The translations under genes were made by a program, and so were the position numbers. From Actinophytocola algeriensis (GTDB lineage Bacteria; Actinomycetota; Actinomycetes; Mycobacteriales; Pseudonocardiaceae), in NCBI RefSeq assembly GCF_014203735.1, contig NZ_JACHJQ010000001.1:1-64000 (forward strand): a stretch of DNA of 64,000 nt, written 5' to 3'. Below are positions 13,577 to 29,124 of the stretch, piece after piece. Numbering within the stretch: position 1 is the stretch's first letter; each line of letters begins with the position of its first letter. The notes under the pieces are model-generated. The model saw nothing but the letters and a program-made list of their open reading frames with translations. It was not told where the DNA came from and searched no databases.

Positions 13577-16500
13577 GTGCGAGGGTTCAGTAAGAGTAAG
13601 AACGCGGTTAAACCACCAGGGGTGAAGCGGGGGCTACGCGGCGCATCACGTTTCGCCGTGGCCGGACTGGCTTTGCTCACGGGAATTGGCGTCGCTTCGG
13701 CGCAACCGGTGAGCGCCTCTTCGGCGCAAGCGGATGCCACCATCCTGGTGTTCTCCAAGACCGCGGGCTTCCGCCACGACTCCATTCCCGCGGGTATCGC
13801 CGCCATCCAGACCCTCGGCGAGCAGAACGGTTTCGCCGTCGAGGCCACCGAGGACGCGGCCGCGTTCACCGCCGGCAACCTGTCGCGATTCGCCGCCGTC
13901 GTGTTCCTTTCCACCACGGGTGACGTGCTGAACGCGGAGCAGCAGACGGCGTTCGAGAACTACGTGGACGGTGGCGGCGGGTACGCGGGAGTGCACGCCG
14001 CGGCCGACACCGAGTACGACTGGCCGTGGTACGGATCACTCGTCGGCGCGTACTTCCAGTCGCACCCGCAGATCCAGGAAGCCACCATCGACGTCACCGC
14101 GCGGGACCACCCGTCGACCGCGCCGCTGCCGTACCAGTGGACCCGCACCGACGAGTGGTACAACTACCGCTCCAACCCGCGTGCCAACGTGAAGGTCCTG
14201 GCCACACTGGACGAGTCCAGCTACGACCCGGGCGGCGGCGCCATGGGTGACGACCACCCGATCATGTGGTGCCACGCCCAGGAGCAGGGCCGGTCCTGGT
14301 ACACCGGTCTCGGCCACACGCAGGAGTCGTACGCCGAGCCCGAGTTCCTCGCCTCGCTGGCGGGTGGCATCAAGTACGCGGCGGGCCTGGAGGCCGCCGA
14401 CTGCGCCCCCGACGACGGCGGGCCCGCCGAGCCGCCGGTCGACGACGACTTCGACCAGATCACCCTCGCGAAGGGCGAGCAGGTCACCGGTGAGCCGATC
14501 GCGCTGGCCGTGCTGCCCGACCGCAAGGTGATCCACACCTCCCGCGACGGTCGCGTGTGGCTGACCACACCGGAGGCCACGACCACGCTCGCGGGCCAGC
14601 TCCCCGTCTACAACCACGACGAGGACGGTCTGCAGGGCGTCGCGGTCGACCCGGACTTCGCCACGAACCGCTGGGTGTACCTGTACTACGCGCCACCGCT
14701 TTCCACCCCGGCCGGTGACGCGCCGGAGAACGGCACCGCGGCGGACTTCGAGCCGTTCAAGGGCCACAACCAGCTGTCGCGCTTCAAGCTCTCCGAGGCA
14801 GGCACGCTGGACCTGGCGAGCGAGCAGCAGATCCTGCAGATCCCGGCGGACCGCGGCATCTGCTGCCACGCCGGTGGCGAGATCGACTTCGACGGGCAGG
14901 GCAACCTGCTGCTGTCCACCGGCGACGACACGAACCCGTTCGCCTCGGACGGGTACTCACCCATCGACGAGCGCCCGACCCGCAACCCGGCGTTCGACGC
15001 CCGCCGGTCGTCGGCCAACACCAACGACCTGCGCGGCAAGATCGTCCGGATCACGGTGGGCGACGACGGGTCGTACACGATCCCGGAGGGCAACCTGTTC
15101 GCCCCCGGCACCGAGAAGACCAAGCCCGAGATCTACGCCATGGGCTTCCGCAACCCGTTCCGGTTCGCCGTGGACAAGGAGACGGGCTGGATCTACCTCG
15201 GTGACTACGGTCCCGACGCCGGTGCGGCCAACCCCGCGCGCGGCCCGGGAGGCACCGTCGAGTTCAACCTGATCAAGGAGCCCGGCAACTACGGCTGGCC
15301 GCTCTGCGTCGGGGACAACCAGCCGTTCATCGACTACGACTTCGCGACCGGCACGTCCGGTGCGGCGTTCGACTGCGCGGCGCCCAAGAACGAGAGCCCG
15401 CACAACACGGGTCTCGTTGACCTGCCGCCGGCGCGGTCGGCGTGGATCCCGTACGACGGCGGTTCCGTGCCCGAGTTCGGCACCGGTGGCGAGTCGCCCA
15501 TGGGCGGTCCCGTCTACCACTACGACGCGGACCTCGAGTCGACGACGAAGTTCCCCGAGTTCTACGACGGCAAGAACTTCGCCTACGAGTGGGACCGCGG
15601 CTGGATCAAGACGATCGAGGTCGGCGCGGACGGTGAGCGCGGCGCGATCGAGCCGTTCTTCGACTCGATGACGCTGACCAGGCCGATGAACATCGAGTTC
15701 GGCCCCGAGGGTTCGCTGTACGTGCTGGACTACGGCAGCGGCTACTTCGGCGGCGCCGAGGACTCGGCGGTCTACCGGATCGACTACACCAAGGGCAACC
15801 GGACCCCGGTGGTGGAACTGAGCGCGGACAAGACGTCCGGCCCGGCGCCGCTGACCGTCCAGTTCGACCCGGCCGGCACGTCCGACCCGGACGGCGGTGA
15901 GCTGACCTACGCGTGGGACTTCGACGGTGACGGCACGACCGACTCGACCGAGGCCACACCGCAGTCGCACACCTACACCAACCCGGGTCAGTACACCGCG
16001 CACCTGTCGGTGACCGACGAGTCCGGGCTGACCGGCGCGGCGAGTGTCGTGGTCACGGCGGGCAACACGCAGCCGGCCGTGAAGCTCGACCTGCCGGTGA
16101 ACGGTGGCTTCTTCGGCTACGGCGACACCGTGCCGTTCACGGTCACCGTCACCGACCCGGAGGACGGCCAGATCGACTGCTCGAAGGTGACCGTGGAGTA
16201 CATCCTCGGCCACGACAACCACGGGCACCCGCTCTCGCGTGCCACGGGTTGTGAGGGCGAGATCGTGACTCCGGCCGACGAGGGCCACGGCCTGGACGCC
16301 AACGTGTTCGGCGTGATCAACGCGAGCTACACCGACACCGGTGCGGACGGCGCCCCGGCGCTGACCGGCTCGGACGAGATCGTGCTCCAGCCGAAGCTGA
16401 AGCAGGCCGAGTTCTTCACCGAGAACAACGGCACGCAGGTCGTCAACGCGACGGGTGCGAGCGGCGGCAAGCGCGTCGGCTACATCGACGACGGTGACTG

Positions 16501-18190
16501 GATCAAGTTCGACCCGATCAACCTGACCGGGGTGGACGCGATCGGCTACCGCATCAGCGCGGGTGGCCCCGGCGGCACGATCACGGTGCGCAAGAACGCC
16601 GTGGACGGCCCGGTGGTGCAGACCGTGCAGGTGCCGACGACCGGCAGCCCGGACAACTACCAGGACATCCCGCCCGCACCGATCACCGACCCCGGTGGCA
16701 CGGGCCCGCTGTACCTGGTGTTCTCCGGCAACGGCGGCGGTCTGTTCGACGTGGACAACATCCAGGTGCGGGGTGACGGCGTGGCCGGTCCGGCCGAGCC
16801 CCAGGAGTGCACGCCGTTCACGCCGGACGAGGGCTACCGCGCCCTCTACGACGGCACGGCGGCGAGCCTCGAGGGCTGGAAGATGTCCGGTCCCGGTGCG
16901 TTCGTCCAGCAGGAGGACTGCACGATCCTGACCACCGGCGGCATGGGCCTGCTCTCCTTCGACGAGGAGTTCGGCGCCTACAGCCTGAAGATGGACTGGA
17001 AGATGGCCGGGGACGACAACTCCGGGATCTTCGTCGGCTACCCGGACCCGGGCAACGACCCGTGGGTGGCGGTGAACCAAGGCTACGAGATCCAGATCGA
17101 CGCCACGGACGCGGTCGACCGGACCACCGGTTCGATCTACACGTTCCAGGCGGCGGACATCGCGGCCCGCGACGAGGCGCTCAACCCGCCGGGTGCGTGG
17201 AACTCCTACGAGATCCAGGTCGTGGGGCAGACGATCAAGGTCTTCCTCAACGGGGTGCTGATCAACGACTTCACCAGCACCGACCCGGCCCGCGACCTCA
17301 CGCAGGGGTTCTTCGGCATCCAGAACCACGGCAACGGCGACGACGTCTGGTTCCGGAACATCCAGATCAAGGAGATCGTGGACGAGACCGCGCCGGTCAC
17401 GACCGCGACCTTCGCCCCGCCCGCGGGCACCGGCTGGCACCCGGGCACCGTCCCGGTGTCGCTGACGGCCGAGGACGAGGGCCAGGGTGTCGACTTCGTC
17501 GAGTACAAGCTGGACGGTGGCGAGTGGACCCGCTACACCGGCGTGGTCACCGTGACCGGTGACGGTGCGCACACGCTGCTGTACCACGCGGTTGACCGGG
17601 CCGGGAACTCCGAGGCCGAGAAGGCGGCGACCATCAAGATCGACGGCACGAAGCCGACGCTCATGGTGGCCGGCGTGGCCGACGGGTACATCTACGGCGA
17701 CGCGTCCGACGTGGTGCTGTCGTGGCACGCGGAGGACGCCACGTCCGGGGTCGCCTCGGTGACGGGCGCGCTGAACGGTGCGCCGATCACATCGGGCCGG
17801 TTGCTCGCGCTGTACCAGCTGCCGCTGGGCACGCACGGGTTCACCGTGGCCGCTACCGACACCGCGGGGAACGTGACGTCGCAGTCGCTCACGTTCGCGA
17901 CGACCACGTCCATGCGGGACATCGGGCAGCTGCTGGACCGCTTCCGGGCGACCAACCGGCTGTCGCTGTCGGCGTACAAACAGCTGAAGAGCCTGCTCAC
18001 CAAGGCCCGCAAGGCCGAGGCGAACGGGAACGACACGAAGGCGGCGCGGTACCTGGGCACGTTCAGGCAGCTGGCCATCGACGAGACGCTCGTCGGTGAC
18101 GAGGATGTGCGATCGGTCCTGGACCGCGACGCCGAGGCGGTCATCGACGACCTCCAGGGGGCGGCCGAGCTGCCCCAGGCGGGTCGATGA
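13577..18190 (+). CDS. Giant exported multidomain carbohydrate-active protein (ThuA-PQQ dehydrogenase-PKD-CBM6-DUF1080)
   Basis: A 1537-aa secreted protein. A long Arg/Lys-rich signal peptide (about 1-42) is followed by a ThuA-like domain (54-270; ILVFSKTAGFRHDSIPAGI), a PQQ-dependent glucose/sorbosone-dehydrogenase-like beta-propeller (300-735; YNHDEDGLQGVAVDPDF), a PKD domain (745-828), a CBM6-like module (940-1065; GKRVGYIDDGDWIKF), a DUF1080 domain (1085-1267; LYDGTAASLEGWKM), two Ig/OmpL47-like modules (1270-1440) and a C-terminal helical FIMAH-like domain (1447-1528). DUF1080 proteins include 3-keto-glycoside-cleaving enzymes; the propeller type oxidises sugars. An AAGGAG site precedes GTG 13577. 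It probably acts outside the cell on glycans. No anchor motif is seen. Confidence 0.9.
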   Translation: MRGFSKSKNAVKPPGVKRGLRGASRFAVAGLALLTGIGVASAQPVSASSAQADATILVFSKTAGFRHDSIPAGIAAIQTLGEQNGFAVEATEDAAAFTAGNLSRFAAVVFLSTTGDVLNAEQQTAFENYVDGGGGYAGVHAAADTEYDWPWYGSLVGAYFQSHPQIQEATIDVTARDHPSTAPLPYQWTRTDEWYNYRSNPRANVKVLATLDESSYDPGGGAMGDDHPIMWCHAQEQGRSWYTGLGHTQESYAEPEFLASLAGGIKYAAGLEAADCAPDDGGPAEPPVDDDFDQITLAKGEQVTGEPIALAVLPDRKVIHTSRDGRVWLTTPEATTTLAGQLPVYNHDEDGLQGVAVDPDFATNRWVYLYYAPPLSTPAGDAPENGTAADFEPFKGHNQLSRFKLSEAGTLDLASEQQILQIPADRGICCHAGGEIDFDGQGNLLLSTGDDTNPFASDGYSPIDERPTRNPAFDARRSSANTNDLRGKIVRITVGDDGSYTIPEGNLFAPGTEKTKPEIYAMGFRNPFRFAVDKETGWIYLGDYGPDAGAANPARGPGGTVEFNLIKEPGNYGWPLCVGDNQPFIDYDFATGTSGAAFDCAAPKNESPHNTGLVDLPPARSAWIPYDGGSVPEFGTGGESPMGGPVYHYDADLESTTKFPEFYDGKNFAYEWDRGWIKTIEVGADGERGAIEPFFDSMTLTRPMNIEFGPEGSLYVLDYGSGYFGGAEDSAVYRIDYTKGNRTPVVELSADKTSGPAPLTVQFDPAGTSDPDGGELTYAWDFDGDGTTDSTEATPQSHTYTNPGQYTAHLSVTDESGLTGAASVVVTAGNTQPAVKLDLPVNGGFFGYGDTVPFTVTVTDPEDGQIDCSKVTVEYILGHDNHGHPLSRATGCEGEIVTPADEGHGLDANVFGVINASYTDTGADGAPALTGSDEIVLQPKLKQAEFFTENNGTQVVNATGASGGKRVGYIDDGDWIKFDPINLTGVDAIGYRISAGGPGGTITVRKNAVDGPVVQTVQVPTTGSPDNYQDIPPAPITDPGGTGPLYLVFSGNGGGLFDVDNIQVRGDGVAGPAEPQECTPFTPDEGYRALYDGTAASLEGWKMSGPGAFVQQEDCTILTTGGMGLLSFDEEFGAYSLKMDWKMAGDDNSGIFVGYPDPGNDPWVAVNQGYEIQIDATDAVDRTTGSIYTFQAADIAARDEALNPPGAWNSYEIQVVGQTIKVFLNGVLINDFTSTDPARDLTQGFFGIQNHGNGDDVWFRNIQIKEIVDETAPVTTATFAPPAGTGWHPGTVPVSLTAEDEGQGVDFVEYKLDGGEWTRYTGVVTVTGDGAHTLLYHAVDRAGNSEAEKAATIKIDGTKPTLMVAGVADGYIYGDASDVVLSWHAEDATSGVASVTGALNGAPITSGRLLALYQLPLGTHGFTVAATDTAGNVTSQSLTFATTTSMRDIGQLLDRFRATNRLSLSAYKQLKSLLTKARKAEANGNDTKAARYLGTFRQLAIDETLVGDEDVRSVLDRDAEAVIDDLQGAAELPQAGR

Positions 18191-18277: not shown

Positions 18278-19567
18278 ATGGCGGGAACGGGTTTGTGGCT
18301 GGTCGGAGCGCGGGGCTCCGTGGCCACGACGGCGGTGGTGGGACTGCTCGCGTTACGGGCCAAGCTCGTCGAGCCGGTCGGTTGCGTGACGGAGCGCCCC
18401 GAGTTCGCGGGGGTGCCACTGCCCGCGTGGGAGGACATCGTCGTCGGAGGGCACGACGTCGTCCACACGCCACTGGAGAAGCGGGCCGAGCAGCTGGCCG
18501 ATGCGGGCCTGATCCCGCACCGCGTCCTGGCCGCCACGGCGACCGGCCTGCGCGCGGTCGACGCCCGCATCCGCGACGGCTACCACCCGGCGACCCACAC
18601 GGGCGCGCAGGCCGACGCCGTCGCACGCCTGGTCGAGGACATCACGACGTTCCGCGGTGAGCACGGGCTCGACCGCGTGATCGTGGTGAACGTGTCGTCG
18701 ACGGAGCCGCCCGCACCGTCGCTCCCGGAGTACTCGTCCCTGGACCTGCTGGAAGCCGCCCTGGCCGACCCGGCCCGGTCGGTGCTCCCGCCCAGCTCTC
18801 TGATGGCCTACGCCGCCCTGCGGGCCGGCTGCCCGTTCGTCGACTTCACACCGTCGCCCGGTCTTCGGCTGCCGGTGCTGCACGACCTGGCCGTGTCGCT
18901 GGGCCTGCCGTACGCGGGCTCGGACGGCAAGACCGGCGAGACCCTCCTCCGTACGGTCCTCGCCCCCATGTTCACCGCCCGCGCGCTGCGGGTCCGCTCG
19001 TGGGCCGGCACGAACCTGCTCGGCGGCGGCGACGGCGCGAACCTGGCCGACCCGGTGCAGGCGGCCGGGAAGCTCGAGTCGAAGGCCCGCGGCCTGGCCG
19101 CGCTGCTCGGAGAGGGCGTGACCGCACCGCTGCACATCGACAACGTGCCGGACCTCGGTGAGCAGAAGACCGCGTGGGACCACGTGTCGTTCGAGGGCTT
19201 CCTCGGCGCGCGGATGAACCTGCAGTTCACGTGGACCGGCCTCGACTCGTCGCTGGCGGCCCCGCTGATCCTGGACCTGACCCGGCTGGTGGCCGCGGCC
19301 CACGACGCGGGTCAGTCCGGCCCGCTGGCCTCGCTGGCGTTCTTCTTCAAGGACCCGGTCGCCACGGACGAACACCGCTTCGCGCAGCAGACGGACATGC
19401 TCACCGAGTGGGCACAGGCACTTGTCCACAGCGCGGACAGTTATCCACAGGCAGACACCGACACCCCCGAAACGTCACCCCCAGCCGATAAGATGGCAAG
19501 GCGGGACGCCCCCGGGAACGGGTGGGGGTTGGGCAACGCGCGCGCGAGCGACGAGGCCTCGTCGTGA
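18278..19567 (+). CDS. Inositol-3-phosphate synthase family protein
   Basis: NAD-binding protein of 429 aa in the myo-inositol-1-phosphate synthase superfamily: the N-terminal Rossmann motif LVGARGSVATT, a long central domain (PPSSLMAYAALRAGCPFVDFTPS) and GSDGKTGETLLRTVLAPMF, close to the family's conserved GSDGKTGxT loop. The predicted reaction is NAD-dependent cyclisation of a hexose phosphate. ATG 18278 follows GAGGAAGG. Its last 31 residues come from a 79-bp repeat also found in the kinase gene at 50183, so the true C-terminus is replaced or extended. It is first gene of a seven-gene overlapping operon. Confidence 0.87.
   Translation: MAGTGLWLVGARGSVATTAVVGLLALRAKLVEPVGCVTERPEFAGVPLPAWEDIVVGGHDVVHTPLEKRAEQLADAGLIPHRVLAATATGLRAVDARIRDGYHPATHTGAQADAVARLVEDITTFRGEHGLDRVIVVNVSSTEPPAPSLPEYSSLDLLEAALADPARSVLPPSSLMAYAALRAGCPFVDFTPSPGLRLPVLHDLAVSLGLPYAGSDGKTGETLLRTVLAPMFTARALRVRSWAGTNLLGGGDGANLADPVQAAGKLESKARGLAALLGEGVTAPLHIDNVPDLGEQKTAWDHVSFEGFLGARMNLQFTWTGLDSSLAAPLILDLTRLVAAAHDAGQSGPLASLAFFFKDPVATDEHRFAQQTDMLTEWAQALVHSADSYPQADTDTPETSPPADKMARRDAPGNGWGLGNARASDEASS
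19473..19551 (+). repeat. 79-bp dispersed coding repeat, copy 1
   Basis: The segment from cgtcacccccagccgataag to gcgcgcgagcga matches 50183-50261 with only two mismatches (near 19534, ca against tg). It is read in the same frame in both genes and encodes PPADKMARRDAPGNGWGLG plus flanks. A weaker resemblance extends about 50 bp upstream, where both copies have two tccaca boxes (here TTGTCCACA 19422-19430 and TTATCCACA 19441-19449). Confidence 0.9.
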
Positions 19568-20415
19568 AGGCGTTCCTGCAGCTCGTGCGGGCTCCTGCCG
19601 CCCTGACCGTCATCGGTGACACCGTCGCCGGCGCGGCCGCGGCCGGCAGGCCGCTTCGCGGGCGGCGCTTGCTTCTCCCGCTGTCATCGGCATCCTTCTA
19701 CTGGGCCGGGATGGCGCTCAACGACTGGGCCGACCGCAAGCTCGACGCCGTCGAGCGACCCGAGCGGCCCATCCCGTCGGGACGAGTCAGTCCCGACCAA
19801 GCGCTCGCGGTCGCCGGCGGGCTCACCGCCGCGGGCCTGGGCCTGGCCCGCGCCGCCGGCGGCCGCGACACCCTGAAGATCGCCGTGCCTCTCGCGGCGG
19901 CGGTCTGGGCGTACGACACCGTCCTCAAGAAGACCGCCGCGGGCCCCGCGGGCATGGCCGCGTGCCGCGCGCTCGACGTCCTCATGGGCGCGGGCGCTGG
20001 CAACGTGCGCAAGGCCCTGCCCAGCGCGATGGCCGTCGGCGGCCACACCTACGGTGTCACCGCCCTGTCCCGCGGCGAGGTGCACGGCGCCTCCCCGAGG
20101 ACCGCGCGTGCCGCGTTCGCCGGGACCGTCGCCACCGCCGCGACCTCGATCATCGGCGCCCGCACCTGGCGCGACCGGCTCGCCGCGCTCGCGTTCTCCG
20201 GTGCCTACTCCGGACTCGTCGGCCGCGCCCAGTACGACGCCGCCCAGGACCCGTCCGCGCAGAAGGTCCGCAGCGCCACCATGGCAGGCATCCACGGCAT
20301 GGTCCCGCTCCAGGCCGCGCTCGCCGCCCGCCGCGGCTCGCTGCTCGGCGCGGTCGCCGTCGCCGCCGCGCTGCCGGTCGCCAAGCGGCTCGCCAAGAAG
20401 GTGAGTCCGACATGA
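19564..20415 (+). CDS. UbiA-type prenyltransferase (SCO3242 family, EboC-like)
   Basis: Membrane-embedded UbiA-superfamily protein, about 283 aa with 7-8 hydrophobic segments. The first Asp-rich prenyl-diphosphate motif is present in modified form (NDWADRKLDAVERPERPIPS). Members of this subfamily sit beside inositol-phosphate-synthase-like and EboE genes in actinobacteria, and EboC of the Ebo operon is a UbiA protein. The second Asp-rich motif is not obvious (QYDAAQDPSAQK may replace it). The acceptor is unknown. GTG 19564 overlaps the upstream stop (GTGA); longer starts would read through the repeat. Confidence 0.82.
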   Translation: MKAFLQLVRAPAALTVIGDTVAGAAAAGRPLRGRRLLLPLSSASFYWAGMALNDWADRKLDAVERPERPIPSGRVSPDQALAVAGGLTAAGLGLARAAGGRDTLKIAVPLAAAVWAYDTVLKKTAAGPAGMAACRALDVLMGAGAGNVRKALPSAMAVGGHTYGVTALSRGEVHGASPRTARAAFAGTVATAATSIIGARTWRDRLAALAFSGAYSGLVGRAQYDAAQDPSAQKVRSATMAGIHGMVPLQAALAARRGSLLGAVAVAAALPVAKRLAKKVSPT

Positions 20416-21899
20416 GGCTCGGGTACGGCACCAACGGTTTCGCGAACCACCGGCTCGACGACGCGCTGCGGATCATCGCCGACCTCGGTTACAGCTCCGT
20501 CGCGCTGACGCTCGACCACCACCACCTCGACCCGTTCGGTGACGACCTCACCAAACAGGTCGACCACGTCGCGAACCTGCTCGACCGCCTCGACCTGCGC
20601 AGCGTCGTCGAGACCGGTGCCCGCTACCTGCTCGACCCCACCCACAAGCACCACCCGACGCTCGTGTGCGACGAACCGGAGGGGCGCATCGACTTCCTCG
20701 TCCGCGCCCTGCGCATCGCCGCCGGGCTCGGCTCCGACGCGGTGTCGTTCTGGTCCGGCATCCGGCCCTCCACCGTGGACCCGGAGACGGCGTGGCGGCG
20801 GATGCGCGCCGGGGTCGGCGAGGTCCTCGAGGCGGCGGCCGACGTGGACGTGCCGCTCGGGCTCGAACCAGAACCCGGCATGTTCGTCGAGCACCTGTCC
20901 GACGCGCTGCGCCTCCGCGAGGAGCTCGGCGCGCCTGCGCTGTTCGGCATCACGCTCGACGTCGGCCACTGCGTCGCCGTCGAACCGGTCGACGCGCCGA
21001 CGTGCATCCGCCGCGCGGCCGACCTGCTCGTGAACATCCAGCTCGACGACATGCGCCCCGGCGTGCACGAGCACCTCGAGTTCGGCGAGGGCGAACTCGA
21101 CCTGCGTGCCACCCTCGCCGCGCTGTCGGAGATCGGCTACACCGGCGTCGCGGCGGTCGAACTGCCCCGGCACAGCCACGCGGCCCCGGTCGTGGCCGCC
21201 CGCGCGTTCTCGGCACTACAGACAGCGCTGCACCACGCGCCGGCGCCGGTGACCCCGGCGACCGGCGATGACCACGATCCGGAGTGGGTGAGCACCGTGG
21301 ACCATCCATGGCTCGTCGAGGCCGAGCAGAAAGTGCGCCGCGACCCGAAATCGGTCGCCGCGCTGTTCCCGGCCGTCGGCCGCAAGGTCGGCCGCGCACC
21401 GCTGCGGCCCGAGACCGATCCGCAGGGCCTGGTGCACGGCACCGTCGACGACCTCGCCCGCACGCGCCTGCTGACCGTGCTCAGTGAGGTCCTCGACAGC
21501 GACAAGGACAGTGGGAAGCTGTCCGAGGAGATCGCGCAGCTCTACCGGTACGGCGACGACGCCGAACGCCGCGGTGTGCTCCGCGGCCTGTCCGCGCTGC
21601 CCGCCGCGACCGTCCCGGCCGGGGTCGAGCTGGTCAAGGACGCCTTGCGCGCCAACGACATCCGGCTCGTCGCGGCCGCCATGGGCGACTTCGCGGCGGC
21701 CCACCTCGACGCGCACAGCTGGCGCCACGGCGTGCTGAAGTGCCTGTTCGTCGGCGTGCCGCTCGCCGCCGTGTCCGAACTGGACAGTCGTACCGACGAC
21801 GAGCTGCTGCGCATGGTCGGCGACTACGCCGAGGAACGCAGGGCGGCGGGCCGCGAGGTCCCCGCCGACGCCGTGACACTGCTGGAGGCACGACCGTGA
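20412..21899 (+). CDS. TIM-barrel sugar isomerase fused to an EboA domain
   Basis: 495 aa. Residues 1 to about 275 form an AP-endonuclease-2/xylose-isomerase-like TIM barrel (MRLGYGTNGFANHRLDDALR; LGLEPEPGMFVEH; ITLDVGHC; EFGEGELD) with His/Glu/Asp metal ligands. Residues about 290-495 match EboA, a helical domain (VGRAPLRPETDP; DDLARTRLLTVLSEVL; NDIRLVAAAMGDFAAAHLD; HGVLKCLFVGVPL, as in EboA ends). In the classical Ebo operon EboA is a separate protein, so this is a fusion. Start and stop both overlap neighbours by 4 nt. The EboA function is unknown. Confidence 0.82.
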   Translation: MRLGYGTNGFANHRLDDALRIIADLGYSSVALTLDHHHLDPFGDDLTKQVDHVANLLDRLDLRSVVETGARYLLDPTHKHHPTLVCDEPEGRIDFLVRALRIAAGLGSDAVSFWSGIRPSTVDPETAWRRMRAGVGEVLEAAADVDVPLGLEPEPGMFVEHLSDALRLREELGAPALFGITLDVGHCVAVEPVDAPTCIRRAADLLVNIQLDDMRPGVHEHLEFGEGELDLRATLAALSEIGYTGVAAVELPRHSHAAPVVAARAFSALQTALHHAPAPVTPATGDDHDPEWVSTVDHPWLVEAEQKVRRDPKSVAALFPAVGRKVGRAPLRPETDPQGLVHGTVDDLARTRLLTVLSEVLDSDKDSGKLSEEIAQLYRYGDDAERRGVLRGLSALPAATVPAGVELVKDALRANDIRLVAAAMGDFAAAHLDAHSWRHGVLKCLFVGVPLAAVSELDSRTDDELLRMVGDYAEERRAAGREVPADAVTLLEARP

Positions 21900-22762
21900 G
21901 GATCTTCGACCCGCACATCCACATGACCTCGCGGACCACCGACGACTACGAGGCCATGTTCTCGGCAGGCGTCCGCGCACTGGTCGAGCCCGCGTTCTGG
22001 CTCGGGCAGCCACGCACGAGCGTCGCGTCGTTCACCGACTACTTCGACTCGCTCATCGGCTGGGAACGCTTCCGCGCCGCGCAGTTCGGCATCCGTCACC
22101 ACTGCACGATCGCGCTCAACCCCAAGGAAGCCAACGACCCGCGCTGCCGCGAGGTGCTCGACGTGCTGCCCCGCTACCTCGCGAAGGACGGCGTGGTCGC
22201 GGTCGGCGAGGTCGGCTACGACTCGATGACGCCCGAGGAGGACGAGGTGTTCACCCGGCAGCTCGCCCTCGCCGTCGAGCACGAGCTGCCCGCGCTCGTC
22301 CACACCCCGCACCGCGACAAGCTCGCCGGGACCAAGCGGACCCTGGACGTCGTGAAGGAGTCCGGCATCGACCCCGGCCGCGTGCTCGTCGACCACCTCA
22401 ACGAGCCCACCGTCGGCGTCGTCCACGAGTCCGGGAGCTGGATGGGCTTCTCGATCTACCCGGACACGAAGATGGACGAGATCCGGATGGTCGCGATCCT
22501 GCGGGAGTACGGCACCGAGCGCATGATCGTGAACTCGGCCGCCGACTGGGGCCGGTCCGACCCGCTGAAGACCTACAAGACCGGGCTCGCGATGCTCGAC
22601 GCCGGTTTCACCGAGGCCGACGTCGACAAGGTGCTGTGGCAGAACCCCGTCGAGTTCTACGGCCAGTCCGACCGGCTCGTCCTCGACGAACTGCCCGGGT
22701 TCTCCTCGTCGACTGAAACGTTCGCGGGCAACTCGGTGCTCCGTGGCGGCGGGAACACATGA
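21896..22762 (+). CDS. TatD-family metal-dependent hydrolase (EboB-like)
   Basis: 288-aa amidohydrolase-superfamily protein. Metal ligands are visible: HxH in FDPHIHM, Glu in AVGEVGYD, His in LVHTPHRDK and VDHLNE. TatD proteins are nucleases or hydrolases; in the Ebo operon this gene is eboB and its substrate is not known. GTG 21896 overlaps the preceding stop as GTGA, and the gene ends with ATGA shared with eboE. Confidence 0.87.
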   Translation: MRIFDPHIHMTSRTTDDYEAMFSAGVRALVEPAFWLGQPRTSVASFTDYFDSLIGWERFRAAQFGIRHHCTIALNPKEANDPRCREVLDVLPRYLAKDGVVAVGEVGYDSMTPEEDEVFTRQLALAVEHELPALVHTPHRDKLAGTKRTLDVVKESGIDPGRVLVDHLNEPTVGVVHESGSWMGFSIYPDTKMDEIRMVAILREYGTERMIVNSAADWGRSDPLKTYKTGLAMLDAGFTEADVDKVLWQNPVEFYGQSDRLVLDELPGFSSSTETFAGNSVLRGGGNT

Positions 22763-23895
22763 CGCCCCTGTCCTACTGCACCAACGTGCACCCGGCCGAG
22801 GACCTGGCCGGTGTGCTGGCGCAGCTCGACCGCTACGCCGAGCCCGTCCGGCGCCTCGTCGGCGTCGACGTGCTCGGCCTCGGCCTGTGGCTGCCCGCCG
22901 CACTGGCCGGGGAGCTGGCGGCCGCACCCGAGCTGCGCGCCAAGTTGCGTGCGGAGCTGGACGCCCGCGGGCTCGAGGTGTACACGCTCAACGCCTTCCC
23001 GTACGGCGGTTTCCACGACGACGTCGTCAAACACTCCGTCTACCGTCCGGAGTGGACGGACGAGGCGCGGCTGCGGTACACGGTCGACTGCGCCACCGTG
23101 CTCAACGACCTGCTGCCCGACTCCGCGGTCTACGGCTCGATCTCGACGCTGCCGCTCGCGTGGCGCACCCCGTGGTCGGCCAAGGACGACGAGGTTTCCT
23201 CAGCCGCCCTCGCGTCCCTGACCAGGACGTTGGACGAGATGGCGACCGCGAACGGGCGGCCGATCCGGTTGGCCGTCGAGCCGGAGCCGGGGTGCGTGCT
23301 CGACACGGTCGCCGACGCCGTGGCCTGGCTCGCGCCCCGCGTCGACCCCCGCTACATCGGGCTGTGCCTGGACACCTGCCACCTCGCGGTGTCGTTCGCC
23401 GACCCCGCATCGACCGTCGCCGACATCTACCGGTCCGGGCTCGAGGTCGTGAAGGTGCAGGCCTCGGCGGCGTTGCAGGTCGAGGACCCGGACACCGGCC
23501 CGGCCCGGCTCGCGCTCGCCGACTTCACCGAACCCCGCTACCTGCACCAGGTGCGGGAACGGACGTCGTCCGGTGACGTGCTCGCCGCCGACGACCTGCC
23601 GCAGGCGCTGTCCGAACTGCCCGGCCGCAACCCGTGGCGCGTGCACTTCCACGTGCCGCTGCACGCCCGCCCCGCCGCGCCCCTGTCGGCGACCACGGAC
23701 GTGCTGCGCGCCGCCATCGCCGCCTTGCAGTCCACAGTGGACGGTACACTGCCGCACGTCGAGGTGGAGACCTACACGTGGAGCGTGCTGCCGGAGACCG
23801 CCGGGAACGGTGGCGACACGGCACTCATCAGGGGGATCGCCGCGGAACTGCGCTGGGCCGTGGCGAACCTGCTGGAACCGGGAGGAGTTCGATGA
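22759..23895 (+). CDS. eboE: Metabolite traffic protein EboE (TIM barrel)
   Basis: 378 aa, matching the EboE subfamily of xylose-isomerase-like TIM barrels. The N-terminus LSYCTNVHPAEDL is characteristic, with YTLNAFPYGGFH, VEPEPGCVLDT, YIGLCLDTCHLAV and WRVHFHVPLH supplying metal-binding and active-site residues. In cyanobacteria the ebo genes are needed to bring a scytonemin precursor to the periplasm, hence the name; the reaction is unknown. It is the most diagnostic gene for calling this an Ebo-like operon. Confidence 0.85.
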   Translation: MTPLSYCTNVHPAEDLAGVLAQLDRYAEPVRRLVGVDVLGLGLWLPAALAGELAAAPELRAKLRAELDARGLEVYTLNAFPYGGFHDDVVKHSVYRPEWTDEARLRYTVDCATVLNDLLPDSAVYGSISTLPLAWRTPWSAKDDEVSSAALASLTRTLDEMATANGRPIRLAVEPEPGCVLDTVADAVAWLAPRVDPRYIGLCLDTCHLAVSFADPASTVADIYRSGLEVVKVQASAALQVEDPDTGPARLALADFTEPRYLHQVRERTSSGDVLAADDLPQALSELPGRNPWRVHFHVPLHARPAAPLSATTDVLRAAIAALQSTVDGTLPHVEVETYTWSVLPETAGNGGDTALIRGIAAELRWAVANLLEPGGVR

Positions 23896-25280
23896 CACAG
23901 GTGGTCGTGGTCGACGTCGTCGGTCTGACGCCGAAACTGCTGAAGCACATGCCGAACCTGCAGTCGCTCGCGCGCACGGGGTGGCAGGCCGAGCTCGGCA
24001 CGGTGCTGCCCGCGGTGACGTGCAGCGCACAGTCGACGTTCCTGACCGGCGCCATGCCGCGCGACCACGGGATCGTCGGCAACGGCTGGTACTTCCGCGA
24101 CGTCGGCGAGGTGCACCTGTGGCGCCAGCACAACAAGCTGGTGCTGGGCGACAAGGTGTGGGAGACCGCGCGTGCCGCGAACCCGGACTTCCAGATCGCG
24201 AACGTGTGCTGGTGGTACGCCATGGGCGCGACCACCGACATCACGGTGACGCCGCGGCCGATCTACCACGCGGACGGGCGCAAGTCGCCGGACGCGTACG
24301 TGCGGCCGCCCGCCCTGCACGACGAGCTGACCGGCGCCCTGGGCGAGTTCCCGCTGTTCCAGTACTGGGGCCCGACGGCGGCGCTGGCGTCGAGCGAGTG
24401 GATCATCGGGGCGTCGCGGAAGATCCTGCGCGAGCACCATCCGGACATGCTGCTGGTGTACGTGCCGCACCTGGACTACGACCTGCAGCGGTTCGGCCCG
24501 GACTCGGCCCAGGCCATCCGCGCCGCGCGGGAGATCGACACCGCGCTGAAGCCGCTGCTGGACGACGCGCGCGACGCGGACGCCACGGTGGTCGCGCTGT
24601 CCGAGTACGGCATCACCGACGTGCGGCGGCCGGTGGACATCAACCGGTTGCTGCGCCGCGAGGGCCTGCTCGAGGTGTACACGCAGGCCGGCATGGAGTA
24701 CCTGGACCCGTGGGTGTCGCGCGCGTTCGCGGTGGCCGACCACCAGGTGGCGCACGTGTACGTCGCCGACTCCTCGGACATCCCGCGCGTGCGGGACATG
24801 CTGTCCTCGCTCGCCGGGGTGGACGAGGTGCTGGACCGGTCGGAGCAGGCCCGCTACGGGATCGACCACGAACGCTCTGGTGAGCTGGTCGTGGTCGCCG
24901 ACCCGGACGCGTGGTTCACCTACTACTACTGGCTCGACGACGACCGCGCGCCCGACTTCGCGCGCGGCGTGGAGATCCACCGCAAGCCCGGCTACGACCC
25001 GGCGGAGCTGTTCTTCAACCCCGAGGACAAGCTGGCGAAGGCCAAGGCGGGGCTGAACCTGGTGAAGAAGAAGGTGGGCCTGCGGTACGCGATGCAGGTC
25101 GTGCCGCTCGACCCGGCGCCGGTCCGCGGCTCACACGGCCGTCTGCCGCTGTCCGCCGACGACGGCCCGGTGCTGCTGTGCTCGGTCCCCGACGCGGAGC
25201 CCGGCGGCGCCGTGGCGGCGACCGAGGTACGCGATCTTTTGTTGCAGTTGCAGGGTATTCCGGAGGGAGTTCGACGATGA
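23892..25280 (+). CDS. Alkaline-phosphatase-superfamily phosphodiesterase (EboF-like)
   Basis: 462-aa nucleotide pyrophosphatase/phosphodiesterase-like protein. The N-terminal metal-binding Asp is in VVVVDVVGL, the nucleophilic Thr in [20 protein letters not shown], and further metal ligands lie in [15 protein letters not shown]. The third ligand motif, normally DHG, reads LSEYGI and is degenerate. It has no signal peptide, so it is cytosolic. It hydrolyses a phosphate diester or anhydride by family inference. Both ends overlap neighbours by ATGA. Confidence 0.83.
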
Positions 25281-26281
25281 GTCGACCAGTCACGTTGTTC
25301 ACCGGCCAGTGGGCCGACCTGCCCTTCGAGGAGGTGTGCAAGCTCGCCGCGCAGTGGGGTTACGACGGGCTGGAGATCGCTTGTTCCGGTGACCACTTCG
25401 AGGTGGACCGGGCCCTGGCGGAGGACGACTACGTCCAGAAGAAGTTGGAGCAGCTGGCCTCGCACGGGTTGAAGGTGTGGGCCATCTCCAACCACCTGGT
25501 GGGCCAGGCGGTGTGCGACGACCCGATCGACGAGCGCCACAAGAACATCGTCCCGTCCCGCATCTGGGGCGACGGTGACCCGGAAGGCGTCCGTCAGCGC
25601 GCGGCGGAGGAGATGAAGGACACCGCCCGCGCCGCGGCGAAGCTGGGTGTGGACACGGTCATCGGCTTCACGGGCTCCAAGATCTGGAAGTACGTGGCGA
25701 TGTTCCCGCCGGTGTCGCAGGACGTCATCGACGACGGCTACGCCGACTTCGCCCGCCGCTGGAACCCCATCCTCGACGTGTTCGACGAGGTGGGCGTCCG
25801 CTTCGCCCACGAAGTCCACCCGTCCGAGATCGCCTACGACTACTGGACGACGAAGAAGACCCTCGACGCGGTCGACAACCGGGAAGCGTTCGGCCTGAAC
25901 TGGGACCCGAGCCACTTCATCTGGCAGGACCTGGACCCGGTGGGCTTCATCCTGGACTTCGCGGACCGGATTTATCACGTGGACTGCAAGGACACGAAGA
26001 AGCGCTTCGACGGCCGCAACGGCCGCATGGGCAGCCACCTCGCATGGGCCGACCCCCGCCGAGGCTGGGACTTCGTGTCCACCGGCCACGGCGACGTGCC
26101 CTGGGAGGAGTCGTTCCGAGCCCTGAACTCGATCGGCTACACCGGCCCGATCTCCGTCGAGTGGGAGGACGCGGGCATGGACCGCCTGCGTGGCGCGGAG
26201 GAAGCGGTGACGTTCATCCGCGCCCACCTGTTCGACAAGCCGGAAGCCGCCTTCGACGCGGCTTTCTCCACAAAGGACTGA
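25277..26281 (+). CDS. Sugar phosphate isomerase/epimerase (TIM barrel)
   Basis: 334-aa xylose-isomerase-like TIM barrel that closes the Ebo-like operon. Signature segments are [73 protein letters not shown] and [13 protein letters not shown], giving Glu/Asp/His metal ligands. It resembles IolE/IolH-type enzymes acting on inositols or keto-sugars, which would suit an operon beginning with an inositol-phosphate-synthase-like gene. The reaction is not determinable from sequence. Confidence 0.83.
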
Positions 26282-26816
26282 CGGTGCGCGGGGCGGGGCG
26301 GCGGCCGGTCGCCCCACCCCTGTCCCCGTGCCTGGCTTGGCCTCCGGCCCCCGATTTCCAGCCTACGGCGGGGCACCGACAAACCGGCGGCTGAGCGAGC
26401 AGTTGTCCACACCCTGCCTTCGACTCCCGGGCAACTGCGCTCAGCCACCTGGTTTGCCGCACAACTCCATCCGGCAGCACACTCGCGGCGGGCTCCCCGG
26501 CATGCGCGGCGCCCAAGGCGAATGCCGTCACACCGACGCCGCGAAGCCGATCACCATCGGCGTCCTGATCTCAGCGGTGCCGAATCCAGGGGTCCGGATC
26601 CGAGGGGAGCTGAACCCGAAGGTCCTGATCCCAGGGGGCCGACCCGCGTTCCGAACCGTGTCCTCAACCCGTGCTCCGAAACCGCCCTTCAATTCGTGTA
26701 CCTGCCCCGTCGTCTGCGTCCGGCCCGGAGAGGGTCGCGCGGTCGTCATCCGCGTCCGGTCACAAACCGGCTCGTTGTTCACCCCATCTCCACCCGTCCC
26801 AATGGAGGGATCTGTC
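26282..26816. other. 535-bp intergenic region with degenerate repeats
   Basis: No convincing gene. The stretch 26560-26660 repeats gtcc(t/g)gatc(t/c) at about 30-bp intervals (near 26563, 26593, 26620) with interleaved gctgaaccc/gccgaatcc. One DnaA-box-like TTGTCCACA is at 26403-26411. No clear promoter for the downstream Tat protein was found. Confidence 0.4.
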
Positions 26817-27674
26817 GTGGCTATTTCTAGAAGGTCCATGCTTCGTGGTGCCGCCGGCGCCGCACTCGCGGTCGGCGCCGCCGGGGTTCTGCCCGGTGTC
26901 GCGTCGGCTGAACGGGGCGGGCACGGTGGGCACTGGGGCCTGCGTGTGCCCAAGGACAAGATCAGCATCCAGCTGTACACGCTGCGGTCGATCCTCGAGA
27001 ACGATCTCGAGGGGACGCTCGACGCGCTCGCCGACATCGGGTACCGCAAGGTGGAGCTCGCAGGCACGTACGGGCGCAGCGCCGAGGAGTTCCGGAAGCT
27101 GCTGGACGCCCGCCGCATCAAGGCGACGTCGACCCACGTCGGGATCGACGGGGACATCGACCAGGCCATCGCGGACGCGAAGGTCCTCGGCAACCGGCGC
27201 AGCAATGTGGCGTGGGCGAACTTCGGGACCATCGCGGAGTGGGAGACCTTCGCCGACCGGCTCGAGGCCGCCGGCAAGGCCTACCGCCGCGCGGGCATCG
27301 GGTTCGGCTACCACAACCACGACCACGAGTTCCAGGCCATCGACGGTGTCCGGCCCTACGACGTGCTGACCCGCCGGACCTCGCGGCGGAACGTCAGCCT
27401 CGAGATGGACCTGTACTGGGTCGTGGTCGCCGGTGCCGATCCGGTGCGGGAGTTCTACAAGATCGCGGGCCGCGTCAAGCAGTACCACGTGAAGGACCGC
27501 GCGCCGGACGGAGGATTCGCCGACCTCGGTGAAGGCAACATCGACTTCAGGCGGATCTTCCGCGCCACCCGGCCGCTGGAGGTCGAGGAGTACATCGTCG
27601 AGAACGACCAGCCGGTCGACGCGCTCAAGTGTGCCGAGACCGGTTACAACTACCTCGCCAACCTGCGTTTCTAG
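26817..27674 (+). CDS. Tat-exported sugar isomerase/epimerase-like TIM-barrel protein
   Basis: 285 aa. A twin-arginine signal ([20 protein letters not shown], cleavage near ASA) precedes an IolE-like TIM barrel ([54 protein letters not shown]). Exported members occur beside Gfo/Idh/MocA and DUF1080 genes. A GGAGGGA site 6 nt before GTG 26817 fixes this start, rather than ATG 26802. Related TIM barrels in Bacteroides act as hydratases in 3-keto-glycoside breakdown, so an extracytoplasmic role with the giant protein at 13577 is possible. Confidence 0.85.
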
Positions 27675-27726
27675 GCGGTCCGGCGACCGCCGAACCCGCA
27701 TAGACTCGATCTCGGAGGTGTTGACC

Positions 27727-29124
27727 ATGCCGCTGGTGGCCGGGGTCGATTCGTCGACCCAGTCCTGCAAGGTGGTTGTGCGTGACGCGGAGTCGGGCGC
27801 CCTCGTGCGCAGTGGTTCCGCACCGCACCCCGACGGGACCGAGGTGGACCCGGCGGCGTGGTGGACCGCGCTGCGGTCGGCGATCGACCAGGCGGGCGGC
27901 ATCGACGATGTCGCCGCCGTGTCGGTCGCCGGCCAGCAGCACGGCATGGTGTGCCTCACCGAGTCCGGCGAGGTGGTCCGGCCCGCGTTGCTGTGGAACG
28001 ACACCCGTTCCGCCCAGGCCGCGGCCGACCTCGTCGACGAACTCGGCGGCGGCGCGGCGTGGGCCGACGCGGTCGGCGTCGTCCCGGTCGCGTCGATGAC
28101 GGCGAGCAAGCTCCGCTGGTTGCGCGACCACGAACCGGAGTCCGTGGCCCGCACCGCGGCGGTGTGCCTGCCGCACGACTACCTGACGTGGCGCCTGTCC
28201 GGCGGCGGCCTGGACCGCCTGACCACCGACCGCGGCGACGCGTCGGGCACCGCGTACTTCTCCGCTGCTACCGGCGCATATCGCACCGACCTCCTGAAAC
28301 TCGCGTTGGGCAAGACCCCGGCGCTGCCGAGGGTCCTCGGTCCTTCCGACGACTCGGGCCGCACCCCGGCGGGCGCCCTCCTCGGCGCGGGCACCGGCGA
28401 CAACATGGCCGCCGCGCTCGGCGTCGGCGCCGAGCCGGGTGACGTCATCGTCTCCATCGGCACGTCCGGCACCGCGTTCGCGGTCGCCGACAAGCCGTGT
28501 GCCGACGCGGCCGGCCTGGTGGCCGGTTTCGCCGACGCGACAGGACGGTTCCTGCCGCTGGTGTGCACGTTGAACGCCGCCCGCGTACTGGACGCGGTCG
28601 CCCGCATGCTGGGCGTCGACCACGACCGGTTCGCCGAGCTCGCGCTCACCGGCCCACCGGGCGCCGACGGCCTGACGCTCGTCCCGTACCTGGAGGGCGA
28701 GCGCACCCCGAACCTGCCGGCCGCCACCGGTGCGCTGCACGGCCTGCGCCTCGCGAACGCGACCCCGGCACACCAGGCCCGCGCGGCCGTCGAAGGCATG
28801 CTGTGCGGCCTCGCGGACGCACTCGATGCTCTTGTGGCACAAGGAGTCCGCACCGACCGGGTGCTGCTGGTCGGCGGCGGCGCCAGGTCCGCCGCCGTCC
28901 GCCGCATCGCCCCGACCGTGCTCGGCCGCCCGGTGCTGGTGCCCGAGCCGGGTGAGTACGTGGCCGACGGCGCCGCCCGCCAGGCCGCGTGGACCCTCGC
29001 CGGTGGCAACGCCCCACCCAACTGGCGGCTGGGCGCGACACAGCGCCTCGAAGGCGACCCGACCCCTGGCCTACGCGAGCGCTACGCGGAGGCGAGGGAG
29101 AAGATCGTGGACCGCCCGAGCTGA
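27727..29124 (+). CDS. xylB: Xylulokinase (FGGY family)
   Basis: 465-aa FGGY carbohydrate kinase that phosphorylates D-xylulose to xylulose-5-phosphate for the pentose phosphate pathway. The N-terminal phosphate loop [15 protein letters not shown], the substrate motif [10 protein letters not shown] and ATP-binding [11 protein letters not shown] are present, with [15 protein letters not shown] near the C-terminus. GGAGGTG sits 6 nt before ATG 27727. It completes the xylose route begun by xylA (12297) but is transcribed from a separate unit here. Confidence 0.94.

Follow-up and report, generated by a model that had tools for sequence, protein, structure and literature searches.

How does an ebo operon come by its ring if the cyclase that should make it is missing? 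The question is raised by seven forward-strand genes at positions 18278-26281 of a window of 64,000 nucleotides (nt) from Actinophytocola algeriensis, the whole stretch of DNA analyzed here. The classical operon, eboABCDEF, has been described from eustigmatophyte plastids, Bacteroidetes, Cyanobacteria and other groups, and in the idea published for it EboD makes a cyclitol that EboC prenylates (PMC5133447; this and the other papers are cited from excerpts). According to the original prediction for the window, seven genes joined by 4-nt overlaps contain counterparts of EboA (fused), EboB, EboC, EboE and EboF, and an inositol-phosphate-synthase-like gene takes the place of EboD. Our analysis favors a wider exchange: this is probably an Ebo-type operon in which two proteins take the place of EboD as a module, an inositol-1-phosphate-synthase-like cyclase (Ino) and an epimerase-type triosephosphate isomerase (TIM) barrel (TIM1), accompanied by a UbiA prenyltransferase of matching subtype, and its product would be a prenylated C6 cyclitol. 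EboA, EboB, EboE, EboF, an EboC-type UbiA and a cyclase are common to this and the classical operon; the differences lie in Ino and TIM1 replacing EboD, in a UbiA that scores below the EboC cut-off, and in the order Ino-UbiA-TIM1-EboA-EboB-EboE-EboF (Table 1).

Family-model searches recovered all of the predicted counterparts, the UbiA being a sub-threshold relative of EboC, and found no cyclase of the dehydroquinate synthase family (EboD) among the seven genes, which bears out the placement of Ino in EboD's position. The gene coordinates of the prediction are exact, and all six junctions have a 4-nt overlap (GTGA or ATGA). The sole PF01761 match of the genome (G000:C5:686131, 150 bits) is presumably AroB; so far as the PF01761 model can tell, no displaced EboD lies elsewhere in the genome. 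Related operons likewise lack EboD, as the prediction implied: it had no match at 1e-5 in any of 80 loci fetched with Ino, the best 80 of 587 confirmed, from named genomes (12 of them shorter than 18 kb), a sample that was selected via Ino and so informs on EboD presence and linkage and not on the frequency of Ino. Mutual exclusion of the two cyclases also emerged from surveys that started from EboE and EboF. Across 396 genomes of the phylum, EboE exceeded its cut-off at 19 loci in 18 genomes (G279, with EboE fragments below the cut-off, was dropped), and of these loci 17 carry Ino, one carries EboD, one carries neither and none carries both. The PF07994 gene at the 17 loci lies ~4-5 kb upstream of EboE on the same strand; at the EboE locus of G381, which has no PF07994 gene, a dehydroquinate-synthase-family gene ~2 kb upstream is 57% identical to Azospirillum EboD. 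On plasmids, 51 of 54 EboF-matching records scored above 200 bits and were kept (the three weaker ones were dropped, many of the Streptomyces plasmids are near-copies, and a region fetched under more than one locus number entered the count a single time). Counted by accession among the matches listed (40 of 45 records and 60 of 115), 32 records have Ino within ~7 kb, 15 have EboD and four have neither; among those matches no record carries both, and the loci read directly agree. The 32 Ino records comprise 28 actinobacterial ones, Gemmatirosa and three haloarchaeal ones, and the variant is thus not restricted to actinobacteria.

EboE alone is an unsafe marker of ebo. It stands by itself on one Streptomyces plasmid (strain NBC_01244, L157:8965-10143) amid polyketide-synthase genes and with no other ebo matches; this record, having no EboF match above 200 bits, lies outside the plasmid count. 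Two further Streptomyces plasmids (L158, L159) have matches to EboB, EboE and EboF only, with no Ino, TIM1, EboA or UbiA in 19 kb, and represent reduced clusters.

The exchange is not limited to the cyclase. TIM1 (PF01261, 116 bits) carries at its C-terminus an EboA domain (NF035938, 156 bits, cut-off 50) that does not reach the stricter EboA family NF035937 (60 bits of 320). The AlphaFold model of the fusion (mean predicted local distance difference test (pLDDT) score 88) consists of a barrel followed by a helical domain. Its best fold match is UlaE (L-xylulose-5-phosphate 3-epimerase), IolI and YcjR are also among the matches, and the 50 fold matches listed contain only barrel enzymes, with none for the EboA fold. 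TIM1 and EboA share one stop-free frame in 34 of 86 testable loci and do not in 52; a 2016 paper already mentions hybrids of EboA and an isomerase in Actinobacteria (PMC5133447). No TIM1 match was found at E 0.01 in any of nine EboD-type loci. Conversely, a search of the 396 genomes (E <=1e-25; a contig-edge fragment in G173, C19, was dropped) returned 25 TIM1 loci in 24 genomes, 24 of them with Ino within ~7 kb, and seven of these Ino-paired loci sit in genomes without EboE above the cut-off. The lone TIM1 locus without Ino is a second ebo copy in genome G128. TIM1 therefore tracks Ino and not ebo. The original prediction, in which Ino alone replaces EboD, holds as far as Ino is concerned and falls short on the rest: TIM1 was exchanged with it, and apparently the prenyltransferase subtype as well.

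Ino contains both domains of the inositol-phosphate-synthase superfamily (PF07994, 166 bits; PF01658, 102 bits). Its nearest solved structure is the Archaeoglobus fulgidus synthase (mIPS, 1u1i; E 9.9e-65), and 1gr0, which we take to be the mycobacterial Ino1, is far behind (7.7e-9). A. fulgidus residues K274, K278, K306, K367, N255, D225 and D332, presumably catalytic (the lysines among them), align to K265, K269, K297, K358, N246, D216 and D323 of Ino, and all seven are unchanged across 12 sequences of actinobacterial, haloarchaeal and Gemmatirosa origin, the window included; three PDB sequences have alanine where 1u1i has K278, K367 or N255. All 17 Ino matches above 300 bits in the 396 genomes fall at the ebo locus of a genome that bears EboE. 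The Ino tree groups the actinobacterial ebo copies together, with Micromonospora copies nested inside and the haloarchaeal and Gemmatirosa copies outside.

The UbiA protein belongs to the 'SCO3242 family prenyltransferase' model (NF045897, 386 bits, cut-off 260) and does not reach the EboC equivalog (NF035940, 158 bits, cut-off 250); its motifs ND-x2-D-x3-D and RP are invariant in 30 sequences, the window included. The UbiA tree splits by cyclase, with the EboD-type enzymes on one side and the Ino-type enzymes, including those of Gemmatirosa and the haloarchaea, on the other; the support of this split is 100/100 in a reduced set of 28 of the 39 rows, from which the long Aureibacter branch and ten actinobacterial rows were left out. 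The Gemmatirosa locus, in which UbiA, Ino and TIM1 are adjacent behind EboB and EboF, allows the cyclase to be compared with the rest of the operon. Against profiles built from nine EboD-type and nine actinobacterial rows, its UbiA scores higher with the actinobacterial profile (151.5 vs 135.8), whereas its EboB (444 vs 258 bits) and EboF (789 vs 611) score higher with the EboD-type profile. Correspondingly, its EboF falls among EboD-type rows, and its EboB beside those of Deinococcus and G381, both EboD-type. In Gemmatirosa the prenyltransferase subtype follows the cyclase and EboB and EboF go another way, a pattern that points to the cyclitol as the prenyl acceptor.

The core Ino-UbiA-TIM1-EboA-EboB-EboE-EboF lies complete, in this order and on one strand, in 61 of the 80 Ino-fetched loci, and this conservation excludes a chance arrangement. 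Five of the 80 have no ebo match at all: four from Micromonospora and that of Saccharomonospora saliphila (L105), which contains runs of N. EboB matches PF01026 (47 bits, cut-off 27) and PF02126 (24 bits) and is nearest in solved structure to AF_1765 (3guw, E 1.2e-25). EboE is an NF035939 equivalog (434 bits, cut-off 250); its predicted model (mean pLDDT 92) resembles SCO6571 (2zds), xylose isomerases and ketose epimerases in fold, and a PDB sequence search with it gave no match at E 0.1. EboF (PF01663, 217 bits) shares 47-53% identity with the EboF proteins encoded in EboD-type operons on proteobacterial and Deinococcus plasmids. EboB and EboF have counterparts in EboD-type and Ino-type loci alike (EboB 43-77% and EboF 38-69% identical). 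The accessory TIM2, matched in 28 of the 80 loci, is very close to 2zds (E 3.3e-172) and matches a 2-hydroxy-3-keto-glucal hydratase well (8ro4, E 2.8e-43), with a weak match to IolE, an inosose dehydratase (39 of 290 bits); its likeness to 8ro4 hints at 3-keto-sugar chemistry for SCO6571-type proteins. A GGAAGG motif lies 9 nt 5' of the Ino ATG (18278), and no useful result came from scanning the surroundings of the operon for promoters and terminators.

Table 1 Features of the ebo-type operon and its flanks in the window (aa, amino acids)
Feature	Positions	Strand	Assignment and remarks
1537-aa protein	13577-18190	+	ThuA, GSDH, PKD, CBM6 and 3-keto-disaccharide-hydrolase domains; signal-peptide-like start (by eye); 87 nt upstream of Ino
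Ino	18278-19567	+	inositol-1-phosphate-synthase-like NAD-dependent cyclase, 429 aa; PF07994, PF01658; occupies EboD's place
UbiA	19564-20415	+	UbiA-superfamily prenyltransferase, SCO3242 subfamily (NF045897); EboC counterpart
TIM1-EboA	20412-21899	+	fusion of PF01261 epimerase-type barrel (residues ~1-275) and EboA domain (346-490)
EboB	21896-22762	+	TatD/phosphotriesterase-type metal hydrolase; PF01026, PF02126
EboE	22759-23895	+	xylose-isomerase-like TIM barrel; NF035939
EboF	23892-25280	+	type I phosphodiesterase/nucleotide pyrophosphatase family; PF01663
TIM2	25277-26281	+	second PF01261 barrel, SCO6571 (2zds) group; accessory, outside the conserved core
Downstream barrel	26328-27674		PF01261 barrel; twin-arginine-like signal (by eye); just downstream of the operon
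Kinase-like gene	27529-29124		reads like xylulokinase (by eye); downstream of the barrel

Gene content and order, conserved active-site residues, mutual exclusion and co-inheritance are what we observed, and from them we infer the reactions and the product as follows. First, judging from its sequence, Ino would cyclize glucose-6-phosphate to inositol phosphate in an NAD-dependent reaction. Second, TIM1-EboA would isomerize or epimerize the inositol phosphate or its keto form. Third, the membrane-bound UbiA would join a prenyl chain to the C6 cyclitol. At last, EboE, EboB and EboF, together with the optional TIM2 in this operon, would tailor the prenylated cyclitol, which may act at the membrane as a carrier or anchor for an exported substance or for secreted sugar-oxidizing enzymes. 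EboD-type cyclases release an unphosphorylated ring (PMC5133447), whereas the product of Ino should keep its phosphate; EboF accompanies both cyclases and is therefore unlikely to be a mere cyclitol-phosphate phosphatase. EboD and Ino are unrelated in fold and have in common only the product class, cyclitols, and the exchange thus provides independent evidence for a cyclitol as the starting material. For the Ino type, both the substrate (glucose-6-phosphate) and the first product can be predicted, and this type is present in tractable Streptomyces and haloarchaea, so that the pathway can be tested stepwise. In Nostoc, single mutants in eboA, eboB, eboC, eboE and eboF retain the scytonemin monomer in the cytoplasm (PMC6282210). 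A bolder generalization, which we offer as speculation and do not expect to hold as a whole, would make Ebo a modular pathway of bacteria and haloarchaea that leads to prenylated cyclitol lipids from interchangeable front ends (EboD, or Ino plus TIM1 with its prenyltransferase subtype), the product serving as a membrane carrier or as a redox or anchoring cofactor for secreted GSDH-type (beta-propeller) sugar-oxidizing enzymes, and cyanobacterial scytonemin export being one instance.

Several observations weigh against the replacement of EboD by Ino and TIM1 in a route to a prenylated cyclitol. First, the gene sets do not always coincide: the second ebo copy of G128 (L060) has neither Ino nor EboD in the stretch read, in a Haladaptatus cluster (L160) the set lacks Ino over the 19 kb read, and close relatives of Ino are found in four Micromonospora loci devoid of ebo genes, with a more distant one in Halomarina. 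Second, in two of the 17 Ino-type genomes, G268 and G318 (82% complete), no other Ino1 homologue was found, and Ino may supply general inositol there too. Third, the support of the UbiA split falls to 84/61 with the Aureibacter row included, an approximately unbiased test does not reject a grouping of the Gemmatirosa UbiA with the EboD-type enzymes (p 0.137), and the comparison of the cyclase with its background relies on a single Gemmatimonadota locus, that of Gemmatirosa. Fourth, the EboB tree divides mainly by EboA or EboG and not by cyclase: six rows with EboA and EboD stand beside the actinobacterial Ino-type rows, and Gemmatirosa stands with three rows with EboG and EboD, and its EboB thus reflects an EboG background and not a cyclase lineage. 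The small gene eboG replaces EboA in Deinococcus (PMC5133447), and this eboG-type gene, which we identified in Deinococcus by position, is matched in G381 and in Gemmatirosa. All four combinations, EboA or EboG with EboD or Ino, occur; therefore, the cyclase varies independently of the older EboA/EboG division, and it looks independently exchangeable.

A further objection concerns the acceptor of the prenyl chain. UbiA enzymes mostly prenylate aromatic rings. The UbiA of a flavobacterial ebo locus, Ubi-297, farnesylated aromatic quinoline acids, and not cyclitols, in vitro (PMC9235831). The TIM barrels, which have an IolE/IolI-like fold, might accordingly dehydrate the cyclitol to an enolized or aromatic ring before prenylation, and the resulting quinone- or phenol-like lipid would carry electrons for, or be a cofactor of, the secreted GSDH-type oxidases encoded nearby. 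We consider this unlikely, although it is the most serious of the alternatives. The strong match of TIM2 to the 3-keto-glucal hydratase, beside its weak match to IolE, would suit such a dehydration, and the neighborhood would suit a lipid that serves oxidases. GSDH, ThuA or DUF1080 matches are present in 55 of the 80 Ino-selected loci and 10 of 18 EboE-selected regions and in none of 20 control regions (13 of the same genomes; positions were round numbers picked by hand), with Fisher 9.3e-5 for the 10 of 18. ThuA is found in 15 of the 18 EboE-bearing genomes vs 51 of the 378 others, counts that ignore genome size and descent, as does the association with secreted oxidases in general. However, TIM2 occurs in only 28 of the 80 loci, and the only oxidoreductase seen in the conserved core is the cyclase. 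As for EboD-type operons, a pyrroloquinoline-quinone-dependent dehydrogenase lies near the Salipiger locus, and the annotation of the other EboD-type loci read showed no sugar-oxidase-type neighbor. The downstream barrel was matched in 30 of the 80 related loci.

The preserved Ino1 active site and the two genomes named above would also be compatible with Ino merely making ordinary inositol phosphate (for mycothiol, phosphatidylinositol or an osmolyte), placed in the operon for the sake of regulation and with the Ebo proteins unrelated to its product. This reading is improbable. Although Ino belongs to the same PF07994/PF01658 superfamily as the mycothiol-type Ino1, it is far below the cut-off of that model (TIGR03450, 30.6 of 638 bits), and the genome has a separate canonical Ino1 elsewhere (G000:C3, 677 bits); the proviso in the original prediction that the gene might serve only general inositol synthesis can therefore be set aside as a whole explanation. 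A mycothiol-type Ino1 is likewise present in 11 of the 16 other Ino-type genomes (ten above the cut-off, and G162 at 606 of 638 bits), and three further genomes have another PF07994 protein. Moreover, Ino is linked with EboE, UbiA and TIM1 and is mutually exclusive with EboD. A catabolic operon for degrading 3-keto-glycosides that arise extracellularly, in which the TIM barrels would be hydratases or epimerases, would agree with the neighboring ThuA/GSDH/3-keto-disaccharide-hydrolase protein, with the resemblance of TIM2 to 2-hydroxy-3-keto-glucal hydratase and of the TIM1 fold to the epimerases UlaE and YcjR, and with the DUF1080 and Gfo/Idh/MocA genes that adjoin the Haladaptatus cluster, but it is very unlikely, given that an inositol-phosphate-synthase-type cyclase with a membrane prenyltransferase is a biosynthetic pairing, that 25 of the 80 Ino-selected loci (some short or lacking ebo) have no such neighbor, and that published ebo mutants show an export phenotype (PMC6282210).

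Parts of this system are already known: the classical operon is published, and NCBIfam names several of these proteins. The claim that the pathway is undescribed for actinobacteria was too strong in view of the hybrid proteins noted in 2016 (PMC5133447), the Saccharomonospora ebo loci drawn in PMC9235831 and the NCBIfam name SCO3242. A literature search, excluding preprints and most subscription journals, turned up no description of the swapped cyclase, of the Ino-TIM1 module or of the haloarchaeal relatives. By description, the operon can also be likened to the EDB cluster of Pseudomonas fluorescens, a full ebo set of the EboD type in which interruption of the eboA, eboD or eboE homologues renders the strain edible to a nematode (PMC6282210), and to SCO3242/SCO3243 of Streptomyces coelicolor, where the same prenyltransferase subfamily name (NF045897) adjoins a locus number given as 'myo-inositol phosphate synthase'; a transcriptome table assigns these two genes to the CDA cluster, with no tie to ebo in that table (PMC3610822).

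The haloarchaeal relatives, on plasmids of Halobaculum, Halocatena and Natronococcus, combine a TatD protein, two TIM barrels, UbiA, Ino (44-46% identical) and EboF within ~8 kb, with no EboA match at E 1 in any of the three clusters; a gene annotated as a PQQ-dependent sugar dehydrogenase lies beside the Natronococcus cluster. The Ino of Halomarina is set amid glycosyltransferase genes, with no ebo genes in the annotation shown. At the second ebo copy of G128, the position of Ino is taken by a gene that reads, by eye, as an FAD/NAD(P)-binding oxidoreductase (L060:12912-15808), and an inositol-monophosphatase-like gene is near. Outside the phylum, Ino and TIM1 also occur together in Roseomonas (L189:7995-17170) and Methylobacterium (L058:7977-16944), in clusters of Ino, a methyltransferase, Gfo/Idh/MocA, YcaO, TIM1, a GT4 protein and a PIG-L deacetylase without ebo matches; with GT4 and PIG-L there instead of ebo genes, this resembles a pathway for a modified glucosaminyl-cyclitol. 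The closest non-ebo relatives of Ino are the four Micromonospora copies (L106, L107, L109 and L111; 63-65% identical), around which the 19 kb read contain no ebo match and, in all four, no TIM1 match. In M. phaseoli (L106, 8713-16764) the neighbors encode a condensation domain, a carrier-protein domain, an AMP-binding enzyme, a pyridoxal-phosphate (PLP) decarboxylase and acyl-CoA dehydrogenases, and this cluster possibly makes a cyclitol-containing natural product.

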